This document shows positions 6,194 through 12,792 of a stretch of 23,151 nt of DNA, piece after piece (positions within the stretch are counted from its first letter, which is position 1; each line of letters starts with the position of its first letter). The stretch spans positions 1 through 23,151 of IMG/VR virus record IMGVR_UViG_3300027784_000860; one strand, 5' to 3'. The DNA comes from a virus. The translations under genes were made by a program, and so were the position numbers. Below the pieces are notes generated by a model. That model was not told the DNA's origin. It did not search any database and saw only the letters and a program-made list of their open reading frames with translations.

Positions 6194-8692
6194 TTATCTT
6201 ACCTCCTTTTTAAAATTTATCTTACTTGTCGAACCCCACCTATCACCGACTTCTACATCGGCCTCAAAAGGAATGTTCACATTTTGATAATGTTTTGGCA
6301 CCCATTCCATGGTGTCTTTAATAATTTTTCCATATTCTTTTACTTTATTTTCTTTAACTTCAAATAAAATAGCATCATGAACCAAATTAACGAGATTTAT
6401 TTCTTTATTTTTAAATTTTTCGTGTAAATGAATCGCCGATAATAATAGAAAATCTGACGCTGTAGATTGAATTGGAAAATTTACAACTTCACGCATTACG
6501 TGGTGTTTTCTTCTACGCGAAATATAACCGAAGTTTCTAGTTCTACCAAACGCGGTTTCAATAGTTTCGCCACTTAAAACTTTAGATTTCTGTTCTTCTA
6601 ACCACTTATTAGCGCCACTATATTGACTTTTCCATTTCTCGATTATATCTTTCGCTTCAGATTTCTTTAAACCAAATTGTAACGCTATAGATTCGTAACC
6701 TCTTCCGTAAGGAATACCGAAATTAATAGATTTAGTAATCGACCTTTGTTCATAAGTGAAATCTTCACCAAACATTTCTTTTGTAGTTTCATCATGAAGA
6801 TCCTTACCTTCATTATATAATTTTATTAATGATTCGTCTTGCGATAAAAATGCTAACGTTCTTAATTCCGCTTGAGAATAATCCGCTTCAATTATTTTGT
6901 AACCTTCTTTTGCCGTAAATTGACCTCTTATAACTGAATCTCTTGGTATATTTTGAAGGTTTGGGTCAGTCGATGATAATCTACCGGTTTCTGTACCGTA
7001 TAATTTAAATAAACAATGAATTCTGCCGTCAAAATTAGCGTGATCTTTCATCGCTTTTATAAATTTTGTATAAATTCCGCTATATCTACGCCATACAATT
7101 ATAGTATTTAATAATTTATTTACTGGATTTTCTAATCTTTCTGGCGGTATTTTTAATACAACCTCACCTTTATTTCCGCCTTCATGAATTACTTCAACTA
7201 AATCTTCTCGTGTTCTATCTATATCTTTTGTAACACCTTGTACCTCGTGAAAGAAATGATCTAATGCGGCTCGATTTGTAGTTCGCTTACCTTCATACCT
7301 ATCAAAACCAATTAAATCATATAATACGTGAGATAATTGTTGCGGTGAATTTGGGTTAAATTCTTCTGGTTCTGATTTCGCATCAGTAACTTCTACATAA
7401 TGAGAAGGATTAAAACCGAAATGGTTTACAACAAGATCGTTAATAGTGTTCGAAAGATTTTCTACTTTTTGTCCGTATTCGTATAATAATTGTTCGTTTT
7501 TCTCTTCGTCAAGTTTAATTCCTCTTAATTCTACGTCGATAAGCATATTTGTAGCCGGTATTAAAATATTGTCGTAAATCCATTGATAGTTTTCTGAAAT
7601 TTCTTCGTCGAGTTTTTTATTAATTTTTAAAACGTAATCTGTATCTTTAGCTAAATATTCATACAATTTATCTTTTGGTGCGTCGCCGTAATTTCCGCCG
7701 CTCGGAATATATTTTTTAAATTCAGATTCATAATCTTTCGCGCCAAGGTATAATTTACTTAATTCTGATAAACTATGAGTACCGCGGCGTTCGTCTACAC
7801 AATAATGTTTTAATAAAGTATCTTCATCTATTTTAGATTTTATATCGTATTGATATCTTAGAAATCTACAGTCAAATTGTCCGCCTTGCCAAACGAATTT
7901 AACCGAGGGGTTTTCGAGAAGTGTCTGGAGATTTAACATTACGACTGGATAATCTATCATTTTTTCGGGGATAATATAAGAAGTTCCCTCGAATGCCGAT
8001 AGACCAATTGCGATAATTTTATCTTCATACCATTTAAAACCTTCGGTTTCTATATCAATTGAAATTAAATCTTGTCTACTAAACCATTCAAACATTTTTA
8101 AACATTTCATCGGCGTATCTAATAATTTATATTCTTGTTCTAATTCTGGTAAATCTGAAGGTTTTTTATTTAATAAAGATACTGCGGTTTTTATATCGCG
8201 ATCAAAATCTATTAAAGACCGCGGTGAGTAAAATATAGAATTCGGACTATAGGTTGAAACGACAAACGCATTAAATTCTTCGTTCCATTTTCCGGGTCCT
8301 CTAGATTCAGTAACGCTATTATTACTTTGATAAAAAGATCTAATCGCATTTTTACCCATTAATACGATTATCTTAGGGTTTACTTTTTTAATATCATTAA
8401 CTAATTTTGATCTACAGTTATTAAGATGGGTTAAATTAATTTTCTTACTTCGTGGTGGTTTACATTGTAACGCGTTTCCAATCGATATATCTTTATAATT
8501 TATACCAGAATCTTCTAAAACGACTTGAAATAATCGCCTAGCTTTACCAGACAACGCTTCTTTATTAAATAATTCTGCGCGATTTGGAGAACTTCCAATA
8601 AAAAACATATCGGAAGTCTCGTTTATTTTATTTTTAACGCGCTTATCTTTACTACAAATACAAACGCCGCAAGGATTATCAGCTGTAGTCAT
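6194..8692 (-). CDS. Family A DNA polymerase fused to an Fe-S uracil-DNA-glycosylase-like domain
   Basis: Replicative phage polymerase of about 832 aa. Residues 1-195 match a family 4 UDG fold: CGVC, then Cys-x15-Cys (CKPPR...NNC), as in the 4Fe-4S site, and GNALQCKPPR. The catalytic GE of motif A is GS here (FIGSSPN), and the motif B HP is SP (TYSPNS), so the glycosylase is probably inactive. Next is a 3'-5' exonuclease domain (SIDIETEG, QFDCRFL, YLAKDTDYVL) with its acidic residues intact. The polymerase domain has motif A DYSQAELR, motif B RSITKSINFGIPYG and motif C VHDA, where VHDE is usual. A 5' nuclease domain is absent. I prefer ATG 8692; a TTG at 8719 is also possible. The start overlaps dpdA by 14 bases. 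Confidence 0.93.
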   Translation of the reverse strand: MTTADNPCGVCICSKDKRVKNKINETSDMFFIGSSPNRAELFNKEALSGKARRLFQVVLEDSGINYKDISIGNALQCKPPRSKKINLTHLNNCRSKLVNDIKKVNPKIIVLMGKNAIRSFYQSNNSVTESRGPGKWNEEFNAFVVSTYSPNSIFYSPRSLIDFDRDIKTAVSLLNKKPSDLPELEQEYKLLDTPMKCLKMFEWFSRQDLISIDIETEGFKWYEDKIIAIGLSAFEGTSYIIPEKMIDYPVVMLNLQTLLENPSVKFVWQGGQFDCRFLRYQYDIKSKIDEDTLLKHYCVDERRGTHSLSELSKLYLGAKDYESEFKKYIPSGGNYGDAPKDKLYEYLAKDTDYVLKINKKLDEEISENYQWIYDNILIPATNMLIDVELRGIKLDEEKNEQLLYEYGQKVENLSNTINDLVVNHFGFNPSHYVEVTDAKSEPEEFNPNSPQQLSHVLYDLIGFDRYEGKRTTNRAALDHFFHEVQGVTKDIDRTREDLVEVIHEGGNKGEVVLKIPPERLENPVNKLLNTIIVWRRYSGIYTKFIKAMKDHANFDGRIHCLFKLYGTETGRLSSTDPNLQNIPRDSVIRGQFTAKEGYKIIEADYSQAELRTLAFLSQDESLIKLYNEGKDLHDETTKEMFGEDFTYEQRSITKSINFGIPYGRGYESIALQFGLKKSEAKDIIEKWKSQYSGANKWLEEQKSKVLSGETIETAFGRTRNFGYISRRRKHHVMREVVNFPIQSTASDFLLLSAIHLHEKFKNKEINLVNLVHDAILFEVKENKVKEYGKIIKDTMEWVPKHYQNVNIPFEADVEVGDRWGSTSKINFKKEVR

Positions 8693-9455
8693 AGCGACAC
8701 CATTTCTTAAAAACGTCAATATTATAACTATATAAATCGCGCGGTTCTACGTCTTCAAACATATCTGGCGAACGTTTCGGTCTATCTATACTGCCTTTTA
8801 AGTCAAAACCATTATACGCGAAAGTAATCGGTGTTCTTGTATCGATACCGCGAATCCATTTTTTATCAGCTATCATTTTTATTTTATCTGATGGACCTTT
8901 TTGCCTCATTAAATAGCCTAATAAATGATATTCTTTACTTTCGTCAATTAAACCTAAATCTTCTAATAAATTTATCAAAGTAACTCTACCTAATTCTAAT
9001 TCTGAATATACGTCAGTTGTAGCTGAGATACCAATCGTATCTATAAAACCTAATTTCGACATTTTATAGAAACAATTTAAATAATCTATTAACGTTTCAC
9101 CTTGTGGTACACCATGAATTTGAAATGGTATGTCGCCGTAATTATTAATATAGTGATGATATGAATTAACAGTTTCGTTATACGTTCGTTCTGAATTAAA
9201 CGAATAATCCGGTAACATAACTTCGCTAGCGTTAACTCGTTTTGCTAAGTCGACAATACGCGGAAACGGCATAGGATACCCGAGTTCTACTACTGCAGTA
9301 TCGACCATAACGAAATCTTCATAAGTCGCGCGGTTATAGAAATAATTCGCATATTCGTCGCTTTCTTCAATATAAGACGGAATAGTCATATGATAGTTTG
9401 TTTTATCTCCGTAATGTTTTAATAAACTTACCGGCATAATATTAGAAACTTTCAT
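8679..9455 (-). CDS. dpdA: DpdA-like DNA guanine transglycosylase (7-deazaguanine insertion)
   Basis: A 258-aa relative of tRNA-guanine transglycosylase. Family members exchange guanine in DNA for a 7-deazaguanine base such as preQ0 or preQ1, protecting phage DNA from restriction. Matching features are the conserved N-terminal Asp (VMVDT, D52), the VMLPD block (D83), FQIHGVPQG (111-119, the substrate-pocket PQG typical of phage DpdA), IGIS (141-144), HLLG (177-180) and RGIDTRTP with the probable nucleophile D205. It is shorter than bacterial Tgt (about 375 aa), and the Cys-rich Tgt zinc site is absent, as in phage DpdA. Start ATG 9455 follows GGAGAGGGTTAA and overlaps the kinase gene. The two transporter genes upstream support this role. 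An unrelated TIM-barrel function is less likely. Confidence 0.85.
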   Translation of the reverse strand: MKVSNIMPVSLLKHYGDKTNYHMTIPSYIEESDEYANYFYNRATYEDFVMVDTAVVELGYPMPFPRIVDLAKRVNASEVMLPDYSFNSERTYNETVNSYHHYINNYGDIPFQIHGVPQGETLIDYLNCFYKMSKLGFIDTIGISATTDVYSELELGRVTLINLLEDLGLIDESKEYHLLGYLMRQKGPSDKIKMIADKKWIRGIDTRTPITFAYNGFDLKGSIDRPKRSPDMFEDVEPRDLYSYNIDVFKKWCRYDYS

Positions 9456-9984
9456 TTAACCCTCTCCTTCCGCATACTTGAATAATTTTTTCTAAAGCAA
9501 CTTCAAATGTTTCTTTTTTACTAATATTAGACGTATCAATTCTAAACGAAGAAACGGTTAATTGATTATAATACCAATTATCGTACGCGTCTTTTAAATC
9601 TTTTAAATACGTTTCATTCATATAGTCGTCAGGCGTAATTCTACTTGCGAGAATATCTTTATCTGCCGATAAATAAATAACAATAGTATTTAAATCTTTT
9701 AACCTTTTTTGAACATCATTTAAATACCAATTTCTAATCGGTTCCGGATGTGTATAACCGTTAATAATTTTTCCGTAAATTAAATTTGAAGGAAAGTGAC
9801 AACGGTCGATAATTTCTGGCGCACTAAACGAACTAAACAAATGTCTCATCGTTACGCCAACTGCTTCATTCGCGGTTACGTGGTTGGTATATTTTTTAAT
9901 CGGCCAACCAAGATAATGATGAAGTTGTGATACTAAACTAGATTTACCCGAACCATCAGGACCTTCAACAAGAATAAGCATCAT
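9442..9984 (-). CDS. Deoxynucleoside-monophosphate (thymidylate-like) kinase
   Basis: A 180-aa P-loop kinase. Walker A GPDGSGKSS is at about 8-16, the DR motif (DRCHFPSNLIYG) at about 60, typical of thymidylate and deoxynucleoside kinases, and a lid region follows IYLSADKDILASRI. It probably phosphorylates dTMP or other dNMPs for phage replication, beside MazG, ThyX and NrdJ. A role in phosphorylating a modified nucleotide is possible but unsupported. The start at 9984 overlaps the mazG stop (TAATG), and GGAGG lies close by; a second ATG follows at once. The 3' end overlaps dpdA by 14 bases. Confidence 0.85.
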   Translation of the reverse strand: MMLILVEGPDGSGKSSLVSQLHHYLGWPIKKYTNHVTANEAVGVTMRHLFSSFSAPEIIDRCHFPSNLIYGKIINGYTHPEPIRNWYLNDVQKRLKDLNTIVIYLSADKDILASRITPDDYMNETYLKDLKDAYDNWYYNQLTVSSFRIDTSNISKKETFEVALEKIIQVCGRRGLNESF

Positions 9985-10337
9985 TATTCCTCCTTTACTA
10001 TTAGTTGAATTTTTCTACAACTTAAATCTCGGTCGGCCCACCTTTCGTATAGTTCTTCGTGTTTTTCGTTCCAATATTTTTCGATATCAATATCAAGAAT
10101 AACGATAAGTTTAGCGATATAAATTAGTATATCTACAAGTTCTGTCGCCATATTGTCGCGTAGTTCTTGTGAGTCGCCGTCGCGCCAAATTTTCTTTACT
10201 TCGTTTGCGAATTCACCAGCTTCACCTGATAAACAAAGCGCCATATGAAATAAATTGTCATACTGTGGTTCATTTTCCTCCATTAAACCATGATAATCGT
10301 CAAATTTCATCACGTCGTTAATTACTTTATCTAACAT
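9984..10337 (-). CDS. MazG-like nucleotide pyrophosphohydrolase
   Basis: A 117-aa all-helical enzyme that would hydrolyse (d)NTPs or (p)ppGpp-like nucleotides to monophosphates plus pyrophosphate. The metal-binding acidic pairs are visible: GEAGEFANEVKK (ExxE) and ELVDILIY (ExxD), separated by about 24 residues as in the MazG fold. It is the first gene after promoter P3, with GGAGG seven bases before ATG 10337. The 3' end overlaps the kinase. Possible roles are cleansing the dNTP pool of an unwanted nucleotide or blunting a host alarmone response. In diaminopurine phages a MazG relative (MazZ) makes dGMP, but neither PurZ nor DatZ is visible here. Confidence 0.88.
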   Translation of the reverse strand: MLDKVINDVMKFDDYHGLMEENEPQYDNLFHMALCLSGEAGEFANEVKKIWRDGDSQELRDNMATELVDILIYIAKLIVILDIDIEKYWNEKHEELYERWADRDLSCRKIQLIVKEE

Positions 10338-10416: not shown

Positions 10417-10451
10417 AAAACAAGTAAGACGACATTACGTCGCCTTACTTG
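10417..10451 (-). terminator. Intrinsic terminator after the guaA-like gene
   Basis: A 13-bp stem (10451-10439 with 10433-10421) and five-base loop are followed by TTTTCT. One G-U pair on the minus-strand RNA would be an A-C mismatch on the other strand. It begins nine bases after the GuaA-like stop and separates the transporter unit from the mazG unit. Confidence 0.85.
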
Positions 10452-10459
10452 CATTATCA

Positions 10460-11395
10460 TTACACTGCCGGAGATTGCAATTCTATACCACCCGGAGGTT
10501 TTGGCGTTATATCAAATAATACTCGCGAGACTTTCGGTACTTCTCTAACAATACGTTTAGATATATGAGTTAATTTATCCATCGGTACATCTGGTATTTC
10601 TGCTTCTGTCGCGTCTTCGCTAATAACGATTCTTAAACCAACTGCAAAACTATAGTTATCTCTAGAATCTTCTTCTTTACCGCGTTCGATTTTAGATACT
10701 AATGTCGCGAAATACCAGAAATTCGGATCATCATTCTGTGAAAATTCTTGTTCTACAATATAATCGGCGTGACGAACCGTAGAGAGACGTTCGCGATCTA
10801 TTTCGCCTAAAATTCGGACCGCTAAAGCAGTACCTGGAAATGGTTGACCGTATTTAATACGGTCGGGTAAATCTAATTCTTCTGCTAACTTTCTAATATC
10901 ACTTTTATACAAATCTTTTAACGGTTCAAATATTTCTATATCAAGATTCATATGCTTTACCGGCCGGACGTTATGATGGTTTTCTTCTATATCAATTTTT
11001 AATGTTCCTTGAGCAAGGATTTCAGCTTGTTCTTTTCTAGCGTATTCTTCAAATATCTTTAAATACTCGCTTCCAATTAACATACTTTTTTCGTGATAAC
11101 CAGGATTTTCTAATTCTGTTAAAGCATCGATAAAACGCGTTTGTTCTTGAGCGTAAATATACGGAATATTATGATTTATTAAAAACCTTTCGGTTTTCTC
11201 CCATTCATTAGCTCTTAACAAACCGTGATCTACAAATATACATTTAAAATCTACGTTCGCGATTTGTAGTAATTTAATCATACAAGACGAATCTATACCG
11301 CCGGAATAAGCCGCAAGAACTTTTTTATTACCAACAGTTTTACGAATATTTTCGATAATACGATCTTTAACCAGCGAGATGTTCGTTGTATTCAT
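10460..11395 (-). CDS. Stand-alone GuaA-like ATP pyrophosphatase (GMP synthetase C-terminal type)
   Basis: A 311-aa enzyme resembling the synthetase plus dimerisation part of GMP synthase, with no glutamine-amidotransferase domain. It has the PP-loop SGGIDSS (31-37), CIFVDHGLLR (52-61), LAQGT, NHHNV, PFPGTALAVRILGE (185 onward; normally PFPGPGLAVR) and a C-terminal KPPGGIE (usually KPPATIEWE). The usual VGVMGDxRTY region is replaced by a divergent GKEEDSRDNY stretch. GuaA adenylates XMP and amidates it; this form would use free ammonia, a partner amidotransferase or another substrate. The start at ATG 11395 is chosen for its AAGGAGG; the gene overlaps the transporter upstream by 29 bases. It could boost GMP or act on an imported deazapurine. 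Confidence 0.85.
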   Translation of the reverse strand: MNTTNISLVKDRIIENIRKTVGNKKVLAAYSGGIDSSCMIKLLQIANVDFKCIFVDHGLLRANEWEKTERFLINHNIPYIYAQEQTRFIDALTELENPGYHEKSMLIGSEYLKIFEEYARKEQAEILAQGTLKIDIEENHHNVRPVKHMNLDIEIFEPLKDLYKSDIRKLAEELDLPDRIKYGQPFPGTALAVRILGEIDRERLSTVRHADYIVEQEFSQNDDPNFWYFATLVSKIERGKEEDSRDNYSFAVGLRIVISEDATEAEIPDVPMDKLTHISKRIVREVPKVSRVLFDITPKPPGGIELQSPAV

Positions 11396-12095
11396 TTGTA
11401 AATCCTCCTTCGGTAACATCTTTCTTTAACCAAGCAACTATTACATAGATTAACGGAGTTTCTGCTAGTGCTAAAATAGTTTTAATTAATTGAACAGTAC
11501 CCATCATAATTAACATATCTCGCCATGACATAGTACCTGCAAATGCTAAGAATTGAAATACGATTGTGTTAGCGACTTGCGCTAAAAATGTACTAACATT
11601 ATTTCTAATCCAAAGCCCTGTTTCGCCTTGTTTTTCTTTCATTTTAGAGAAAATATAGATATCTAATACTTGAGTGAAACCTGAAGTAATGAAGCTTGCG
11701 AATAATATTCTCGGAACCGCGCCAAGCACTATTTCATATGCTGCTTGATGTTCGAAAAACGGTGCTGGTGGAAGCGATACAGCACCAATGTAAACTGCGA
11801 GTGAAACTAATTGGATTCCAATTCCGATAAACATTGTTTTAATTGCTAATCTTTTACCCCAAACTTCGTTTACTGCATCTGTACACCAAAACGTTAATGC
11901 GTAAAATATTGTTGCTGAATTAAGAATAAATGGACCTATTTGAACTAATTTACCTGCAACAGTATTCGCTGAAATATAAATCGCGAAAGTTATACCTAAC
12001 ATCAACATTAATCGCCATGGTATTACTGTATCAGCTGTACCAAATATCTTTTCAAACCTTGTATTCTCTTTTACATAACCACCAATTTTATTCAA
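11367..12095 (-). CDS. yhhQ: YhhQ/VUT-family queuosine-precursor transporter, second copy
   Basis: A 242-aa membrane protein with about six hydrophobic helices of the Vut_1 family, whose E. coli member YhhQ imports preQ0/preQ1. Family blocks are VAGKLVQIGPFILNSATIFYALTFWCTDAVNEVWG, given here as the region at about 46-80, and LWIRNNVSTFLAQ at about 161-173, then LAFAGTM. It starts at TTG 12095, eight bases after GGAGG. It ends inside the GuaA-like gene, so the two are translationally linked. Substrate is inferred from the family and the nearby DpdA. It differs clearly from copy 1 (for example CTDAVNEVWG versus VTDIVNEIWG). Confidence 0.9.
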   Translation of the reverse strand: MNKIGGYVKENTRFEKIFGTADTVIPWRLMLMLGITFAIYISANTVAGKLVQIGPFILNSATIFYALTFWCTDAVNEVWGKRLAIKTMFIGIGIQLVSLAVYIGAVSLPPAPFFEHQAAYEIVLGAVPRILFASFITSGFTQVLDIYIFSKMKEKQGETGLWIRNNVSTFLAQVANTIVFQFLAFAGTMSWRDMLIMMGTVQLIKTILALAETPLIYVIVAWLKKDVTEGGFTNEYNEHLAG

Positions 12096-12108: not shown

Positions 12109-12792
12109 TTAGTTTATACCTTTAATATTTTTAACTATTCTAACGCCGAGATATATTAATGGTGTATCTGCTATACCAACTAAACTTTTTAGTAACGCGG
12201 TTGTAGCCATCATTACAATTAATTCTCCAGTAGCCATCGTACCAGCAAATGCTAAAAATGAAAATAATATCGCGTCGAAAATTTGTGCTGTTACTGTAGA
12301 AACATTATTTCTAAACCAAAGCATTTTACCTTCATGCGCTTTTTTAAGTTTATCATAAATCCATACATCATAAGCGTGAGTTATAAGATACGTTGTAAAA
12401 CTCGCTATTAAAATTCTTGGTACACCGCCTAATACCATTTCAAATGGTCCTTGCATTTCGCCCCATGGAGCTTCTGGTATAAATATTCCGAAATAATAAA
12501 CGCCAATCATTATTAATTGAGCATAAATACCCATTACAACTAACTTTTTAGATATTTTTATACCCCATATTTCGTTAACGATATCAGTAACAAGAAATGT
12601 TAAAGGATACAATAAAGTACCTGCAGATAAGACAAATGGTCCAATTTGAGCTACTTTTGGTGTGATAGTATTAATCGCTGTTAATGAAGCGATAAACGAT
12701 ACTACTAAAACTAGTAAAGTCCAATCGAAATTCACATCGAGTTCTGAAGATTCTGAGACCCCAACCGATTTTTGTACATTTGAATTTTTCAT
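12109..12792 (-). CDS. yhhQ: YhhQ/VUT-family queuosine-precursor transporter, first copy
   Basis: A 227-aa inner-membrane protein with about six hydrophobic segments from residue 25 to the C-terminus. It shares the Vut_1 blocks PLTFLVTDIVNEIWG, GGVPRILIASF, LWFRNNVSTVTAQ and SFLAFAGTM with the second copy, so the pair is a tandem duplication that has diverged well beyond half of its positions by eye. A hydrophilic N-terminal tail of about 24 residues precedes the first helix. Start ATG 12792 has GGAGG 13 bases upstream, a longer spacing than elsewhere in the window. It is the first gene after promoter P4. Two copies may form a pair or take two substrates. Confidence 0.9.
   Translation of the reverse strand: MKNSNVQKSVGVSESSELDVNFDWTLLVLVVSFIASLTAINTITPKVAQIGPFVLSAGTLLYPLTFLVTDIVNEIWGIKISKKLVVMGIYAQLIMIGVYYFGIFIPEAPWGEMQGPFEMVLGGVPRILIASFTTYLITHAYDVWIYDKLKKAHEGKMLWFRNNVSTVTAQIFDAILFSFLAFAGTMATGELIVMMATTALLKSLVGIADTPLIYLGVRIVKNIKGIN

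Follow-up and report, generated by a model that had tools for sequence, protein, structure and literature searches.

A phage-encoded protein of the GMP synthetase family has retained the catalytic core of that family and lost the residues that read its substrate. Its gene lies in a virus record of 23,151 bases (33% G+C), called here the window, in which the minus strand carries nearly all genes. The protein, referred to as GuaA-like, is by its sequence a stand-alone GMP-synthetase ATP-pyrophosphatase of the GuaAb type. The gene shares an operon with two transporters of the queuosine-precursor type, and the next unit encodes a DpdA-type DNA guanine transglycosylase. The explanation that we tentatively favor, and that falls a little short of probable, is an amidating or aminating synthetase whose specificity has shifted off XMP and that is tied to a deazaguanine supply module; any substrate named for it is a guess.

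The gene occupies positions 10460-11395 on the minus strand and is a real ORF, as had been called in the preliminary description. The longest ATG-initiated ORF spans 10460-11419; the ATG at 11395, with a Shine-Dalgarno sequence (AAGGAGG, 11410-11404) 8 nt upstream, is the most likely start and gives a protein of 311 aa. This protein matches the Pfam family GMP_synt_C with 66 bits (cut-off 27), and its best matches are GMP synthetases throughout. Against the NCBIfam GuaA equivalog TIGR00884 it scores 245.9 bits, which is 93 bits short of the cut-off (338.75). Among solved structures, 6jp9 and 2dpl, both archaeal ATPPase subunits that stand alone, are nearest, and identity to Methanocaldococcus jannaschii GuaAb (6jp9) is 43%. 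The AlphaFold2 model (mean pLDDT 84.6) matches 6jp9 with a Z-score of 32.7 over 289 residues, compared with about 21 for LarE and about 19 for NadE, so the protein is of the GMP synthetase type and more than a generic PP-loop protein. Both the Pfam match and the structural match thus recover the ATPPase and GMP_synt_C dimerisation fold of GuaA and GuaAb. The GATase domain is absent from the protein, and no GATase partner was recognised among the scanned ORFs of the window, a 23-kb virus fragment. A synthetase without an amidotransferase had been proposed for this gene, and that assignment holds. A relationship to QueC finds no counterpart in the protein, which gave no match to PF06508 and has two Cys in its whole length, so that the C(x)8CxxCxxC motif is missing.

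Few amidotransferase systems have been studied as well as GMP synthetase. An alignment of GuaA-like with 99 homologs (bacterial, archaeal and virus-derived sequences taken from virus contigs, genomes and solved structures) was read column by column against the published contacts of XMP. In Thermus thermophilus GuaA, Arg288 touches O6 and N7, Gln424 touches the ribose, a Pro-Gly-Pro stretch lies around the base, and Lys495, Ile500 and Glu501 grip the phosphate (PMC11448925). The Arg discriminates XMP from other purine monophosphates and is itself held by the C-terminal carboxylate (PMC10526850). In this alignment, GuaA-like keeps the SGGxDS P-loop (S39-S44), D143, E146, the HHN motif (H148-H149-N150) and K172, which contacts pyrophosphate. 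The site for the 5'-phosphate of XMP, built of a Lys, an Ile and a Glu with an Arg of the partner chain, is also kept (K307, I312, E313 and R253, together with R299; residue roles from PMC10526850), as are the dimerisation residues R299 and E313.

The substrate-reading residues show a different pattern. The xanthine-reading Arg (O6/N7), an Arg in 99 of 99 homologs, is S112 in GuaA-like, and the ribose-contacting Gln, likewise present in all 99, is deleted. The lid that precedes HHN reads I/V-K-S/T in 97 of the 99 homologs and EEN (EENHHN), without the Lys, in GuaA-like; the lid, counted from the Asp to the HH, has 5 residues, as against 8-20 elsewhere (mostly 15-18). The PGPG of GMP synthetases has become PGTA. 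At the C-terminus the protein runs four residues beyond the usual end, an extension that displaces the carboxylate which holds the Arg in other enzymes. Altogether, 11 of 52 near-invariant columns are lost, whereas the median for the other homologs is 0. Because the catalytic and phosphate residues are kept while the Arg, the Gln and the lid are gone, the losses center on substrate reading and the lid and spare the core. In Plasmodium falciparum GMPS the lid Lys is essential for the formation of adenyl-XMP (PMC10526850), and so the activity of GuaA-like, which lacks it, is not assured. Either R152 or K156, immediately after HHNV, might stand in for this Lys.

The preliminary description had based its case on shorter motifs. 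Its kept parts (PP-loop, HHNV and KPPGGIE) are indeed conserved in the alignment, at S39-S44, H148-N150 and K307/I312/E313. Its differences need qualification. The change of PFPGPG to PFPGTA is present but not diagnostic, and PFPG-T was rejected as a sign of a distinct enzyme, since GuaAs that are otherwise ordinary can also have T, S or A after PFPG. The VGVMGDxRTY region, described as replaced, is changed at its V, M and G positions but keeps G247, D251, R253 and Y256. The terminal LQ, noted in place of WE, belongs to an end that resembles archaeal IEF-type ends lengthened by four residues. The stronger differences had been missed: the Arg that reads xanthine, the Gln at the ribose and the Lys of the lid have all been lost.

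How does GuaA-like compare with its characterized relatives? With GuaAb (6jp9 and 2dpl), the synthetase subunit of the two-subunit GMP synthetase, it has in common its length and fold, the lack of a GATase, the PP-loop, the HHN, the D/E helix, the phosphate-site K/I/E with R, and a C-terminus ending near I-E-F/L, apart from the four extra residues. It differs from GuaAb in having lost the equivalents of Arg102, the ribose Gln and the IK of the lid, in the PGTA and the shortened lid described above, and in its gene neighborhood, where it adjoins YhhQ and has no GATase gene as neighbor. Full-length bacterial GuaAs are 35-45% identical to it over the ATPPase and dimerisation domains and include PFPG-T/S/A variants, but GuaA-like has neither their GATase domain nor a recognised partner for it in the window, and carries the Arg, Gln and lid losses. 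The QueC and Gat-QueC proteins of dpdA phages such as BSTP12 and Youna2 resemble GuaA-like in their PP-loop HUP fold, their adenylation-amidation chemistry and their place in the dpdA neighborhood. They are a different family, however: GuaA-like lacks PF06508 and the Cys zinc motif and has the GMPS dimerisation domain.

No ortholog of GuaA-like was found by motif searches of IMG/VR and GTDB or by a single-protein octamer scan of viral contigs. In viral contigs, the PFPGTA pattern gave 5 matches (all spurious), PFPG[STA] gave 9 (none encoding GuaA) and KPPGGIE gave 11 (none GuaA); in genomes, PFPG[STA] gave 49, about two dozen of them ordinary or partial GuaAs and none an ortholog. Only exact motifs are caught by these patterns, and an ortholog that differs in a letter could escape them. 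A profile search of viral contigs recovered 39 GuaAs, nearly all ordinary and full-length, and GuaA matches in records labeled as phage resemble ordinary full-length or bacterial GuaA. In a separate observation, divergent GuaA-type paralogs with altered GDxR loops (GVRDNKR, GVHEGVR and CYRDGAK) were seen in virus-labeled contigs and a Bacillota MAG (L041:10001-10915, L012:1073-1987 and L085:2484-3377, all on the plus strand); one of the three lacks HHN. The phylogeny with GuaAb and GuaA called for in the preliminary description was obtained, but it does not fix a placement. The maximum-likelihood tree draws GuaA-like beside M. jannaschii on a terminal branch that, at 2.9 changes per site, exceeds the median about 20-fold, and a placement within bacterial GuaA survives the AU test (p 0.79); no origin is claimed for this reason. 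With a single sequence on so long a branch, relaxed constraint could explain some of the residue losses.

GuaA-like overlaps by 29 nt, as first described, the upstream gene for a YhhQ/QPTR-type queuosine-precursor transporter (11367-12095, minus strand, TTG start), the GuaA-like start lying at 11395 and the transporter end at 11367. This transporter matches Pfam Vut_1 and scores 129 bits against TIGR00697 (cut-off 51). A second transporter of the same type (12109-12792, minus strand) scores 137 bits against the same cut-off of 51, and the two are 42% identical to each other. Members of the YhhQ/QPTR family vary in substrate (PMC11130926), and preQ0, preQ1 and queuine are the candidate cargoes here. 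No riboswitch was found upstream of the operon. Directly 3' of the GuaA-like gene lies an intrinsic-terminator-like hairpin (10420-10452, minus strand; 14 bp, -21 kcal/mol, z -6.5) followed by the U-rich tail UUUUCU. Gene spacing and this hairpin support a single transcription unit for GuaA-like and both transporters, with dpdA in the next unit, which is the arrangement that had been proposed.

The unit after the hairpin consists of four minus-strand genes that touch or overlap. The first encodes a MazG-like nucleotide pyrophosphohydrolase (9984-10337), with a 41% identical homolog in the same place in the metagenomic contig L110. It is followed by a P-loop (deoxy)nucleoside/thymidylate-kinase-like protein (9442-9984; phrog_761, dNK), the DpdA-type DNA guanine transglycosylase (8679-9455) and, overlapping dpdA, a UDG-like domain fused to a family A DNA polymerase (UDG-PolA; 6194-8719). 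The 8679-9455 product matches annotated phage DNA guanine transglycosylases by tblastn, its model matches tRNA-guanine transglycosylases (TGT) and the DpdA structure 7ui4, and its Asp residues D52, D83 and D205 are invariant in 19 sequences. By fold it is a TGT/DpdA protein and by kinship a phage DpdA, and insertion of a 7-deazaguanine base into DNA is its predicted activity. The phage also encodes RNR and ThyX; among the genes recognised in the window there is no phosphoribosyltransferase.

Several features of this unit recur elsewhere. The MazG-like and thymidylate-kinase-like genes (9984-10337 and 9442-9984 in the window) stand just before dpdA in several unrelated phages (L110:9103-10004, plus strand), and kinase homologs lie directly upstream of dpdA in BSTP12 and L110. 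This pairing suggests a constant part in DpdA-type modification. The UDG-like domain N-terminal to a family A polymerase (6194-8719, minus strand, in the window) recurs in Youna2, L110 and the metagenomic contig L190, near dpdA each time. A phosphoribosyltransferase is recurrent in immuto-like dpdA clusters (L105:5840-6235, plus strand, and many DpdA loci), where it may serve the salvage of guanine released by DpdA or the synthesis of deazaguanine nucleotides.

The neighborhood of DpdA with the kinase, MazG or both is kept in Youna2 (Weizmannia), BSTP12 (Bacillus), immuto (Flavobacterium), phiST (Cellulophaga) and L110, and in most of them PolA follows DpdA. Upstream, these phages carry genes for preQ0 synthesis (QueD, QueE and FolE, often with QueC). 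In the window, that upstream place is occupied by the two YhhQs and GuaA-like. This synteny is the best positional evidence available, and it supports the view that import would replace preQ0 synthesis in this phage and that GuaA-like would belong to the supply module. Phages with YhhQ/QPTR and dpdA but without preQ0 genes have been grouped as salvage phages (Hutinet et al., 2019, PMC6884629). The window resembles them in its DpdA and YhhQ and in lacking preQ0 genes, and differs in having two YhhQs and GuaA-like in one operon.

The association of GuaA-like with deazaguanine genes is a single case. A search of 45 phage records with a DpdA or TGT gave no GMP_synt_C match, and with no ortholog recovered by motif, the co-occurrence with deazapurine genes on which the preliminary description had staked its proposal appeared in none of the records covered. 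GuaA-like is also absent from four contigs that carry both YhhQ and DpdA (L190, L249, L250 and L252), and QueC, QueE and FolE were not recognised near these genes there. L190 is otherwise the most similar salvage phage: it shares a YhhQ (44%), a DpdA, a 3D-domain protein and UDG-PolA, the polymerase and DpdA being of the same types. Instead of GuaA-like it encodes an adenylosuccinate synthetase that resembles PurA and PurZ, along with a QueD-like protein of divergent sequence. The former (L190:15166-16371, plus strand; phrog_1211) lies directly upstream of the polymerase, falls short of the PurA cut-off and far short of that for PurZ, and keeps the PurA catalytic Asp (GDEGKGK); for these last two reasons it may be an ordinary PurA-like enzyme. 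With this enzyme encoded next to UDG-PolA in a salvage phage so similar to the window, phages of this type may need purine-nucleotide enzymes generally. The divergent QueD-like (PTPS-fold) protein occurs in two YhhQ+DpdA phages (L190:10874-11632, Pfam 19.6 bits, and L250:7987-8424, without a Pfam match; both on the plus strand) and might act on deazaguanines or pterins as a salvage-type enzyme.

Under the favored explanation, GuaA-like would be translated from the tail of the two-transporter message and would still bind ATP-Mg. Its substrate would be a purine-like compound with a 5'-phosphate, but not XMP; the enzyme would adenylate an oxygen of a carbonyl or carboxylate group on it, and free ammonia would then displace AMP to give an amine or an amide. 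From its position, the enzyme would act in a 7-deazaguanine supply module that feeds DpdA, with import in place of preQ0 synthesis. A pocket opened around N7 and O6 would suit a 7-substituted deazaguanine nucleotide, though this is a guess at the substrate. Because the xanthine and ribose readers are lost and the gene sits in a YhhQ operon at the position of the preQ0 genes, a connection with the deazaguanine module in preference to plain GMP synthesis is reasonable, as had been suggested earlier; the substrate itself is predicted only. The further suggestion of work on the imported free base is not supported by the residues: the 5'-phosphate site is retained, so the substrate is more likely a nucleotide than a free base. 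YhhQ imports bases and DpdA uses bases, yet the retained phosphate site implies a nucleotide and the window has no recognised phosphoribosyltransferase, which points to a difficulty for a dedicated deazaguanine step. The most specific form of the proposal, in which the scaffold has been re-tooled for the amidation or amination of a (ribo)nucleotide of 7-deazaguanine derived from the imported queuosine precursor and so gives a new DNA base modification, is doubtful.

The strongest competitor is that GuaA-like has remained a GMP synthetase: it would evolve fast, aminate XMP with free ammonia, and serve either to raise GMP/GTP for the DNA and RNA of the phage or to recycle purine once DpdA has freed guanine, its adjacency to YhhQ being incidental. 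Best matches that are all GMP synthetases, an entirely kept fold, and an intact phosphate site and catalytic residues are what such an enzyme would show, and the nucleotide-supply genes of the phage (RNR, ThyX, MazG and the kinase) would fit it, as would the adenylosuccinate synthetase of L190, which acts on the sister branch from IMP. It is nevertheless rather unlikely: all or nearly all of 99 homologs have the XMP-discriminating Arg, the ribose-contacting Gln and the Lys of the lid, GuaA-like has none of them, and the score (246 bits) stays below the GuaA equivalog cut-off (339).

PurZ makes 2-aminoadenine nucleotides in Z-genome phages. By analogy, GuaA-like could aminate some other purine (d)nucleotide that has nothing to do with the imported base, such as a deoxynucleotide for the phage polymerase. 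Loss of the ribose Gln could favor deoxyribose, the PurA/PurZ-like protein of the DpdA/YhhQ phage L190 lies beside UDG-PolA, and each of the two phages encodes a family A polymerase and a MazG-like protein. Nothing in the window points directly to a second modified base, however; MazG and the kinase accompany dpdA in phages without GuaA-like, and the GDEGKGK Asp and low PurZ score of the L190 enzyme weaken the analogy, which makes this improbable. A non-catalytic role, in which GuaA-like would bind host GuaA by its dimerisation domain and modulate the synthesis of GMP, would suit the loss of the lid Lys, an active site built across the GMPS dimer and the kept R299/E313, but it is very unlikely, since conservation of the ATP loop, HHN, Asp/Glu and K172 is unexpected in a dead protein and pairing would be fortuitous with bacterial GuaAs only about 35-45% identical. 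The little probability that is left goes to some other function.

GMPS-family ATPPases and YhhQ-DpdA salvage phages are known already. A GuaA-like protein in phage deazaguanine modules was not described in the literature searched, nor were the combination of the two and the residue pattern. The XMP-reading residues of GMP synthetase are practically invariant, and a homolog with the core but without the base and ribose readers would show by what changes this scaffold can switch substrates. Do base-importing phages also tailor deazaguanines with uncatalogued enzymes? The YhhQ-DpdA setting of GuaA-like makes this question testable. If the most specific proposal is true, phage deazaguanine pathways would have in GuaA-like a third kind of PP-loop enzyme, beside QueC and Gat-QueC.
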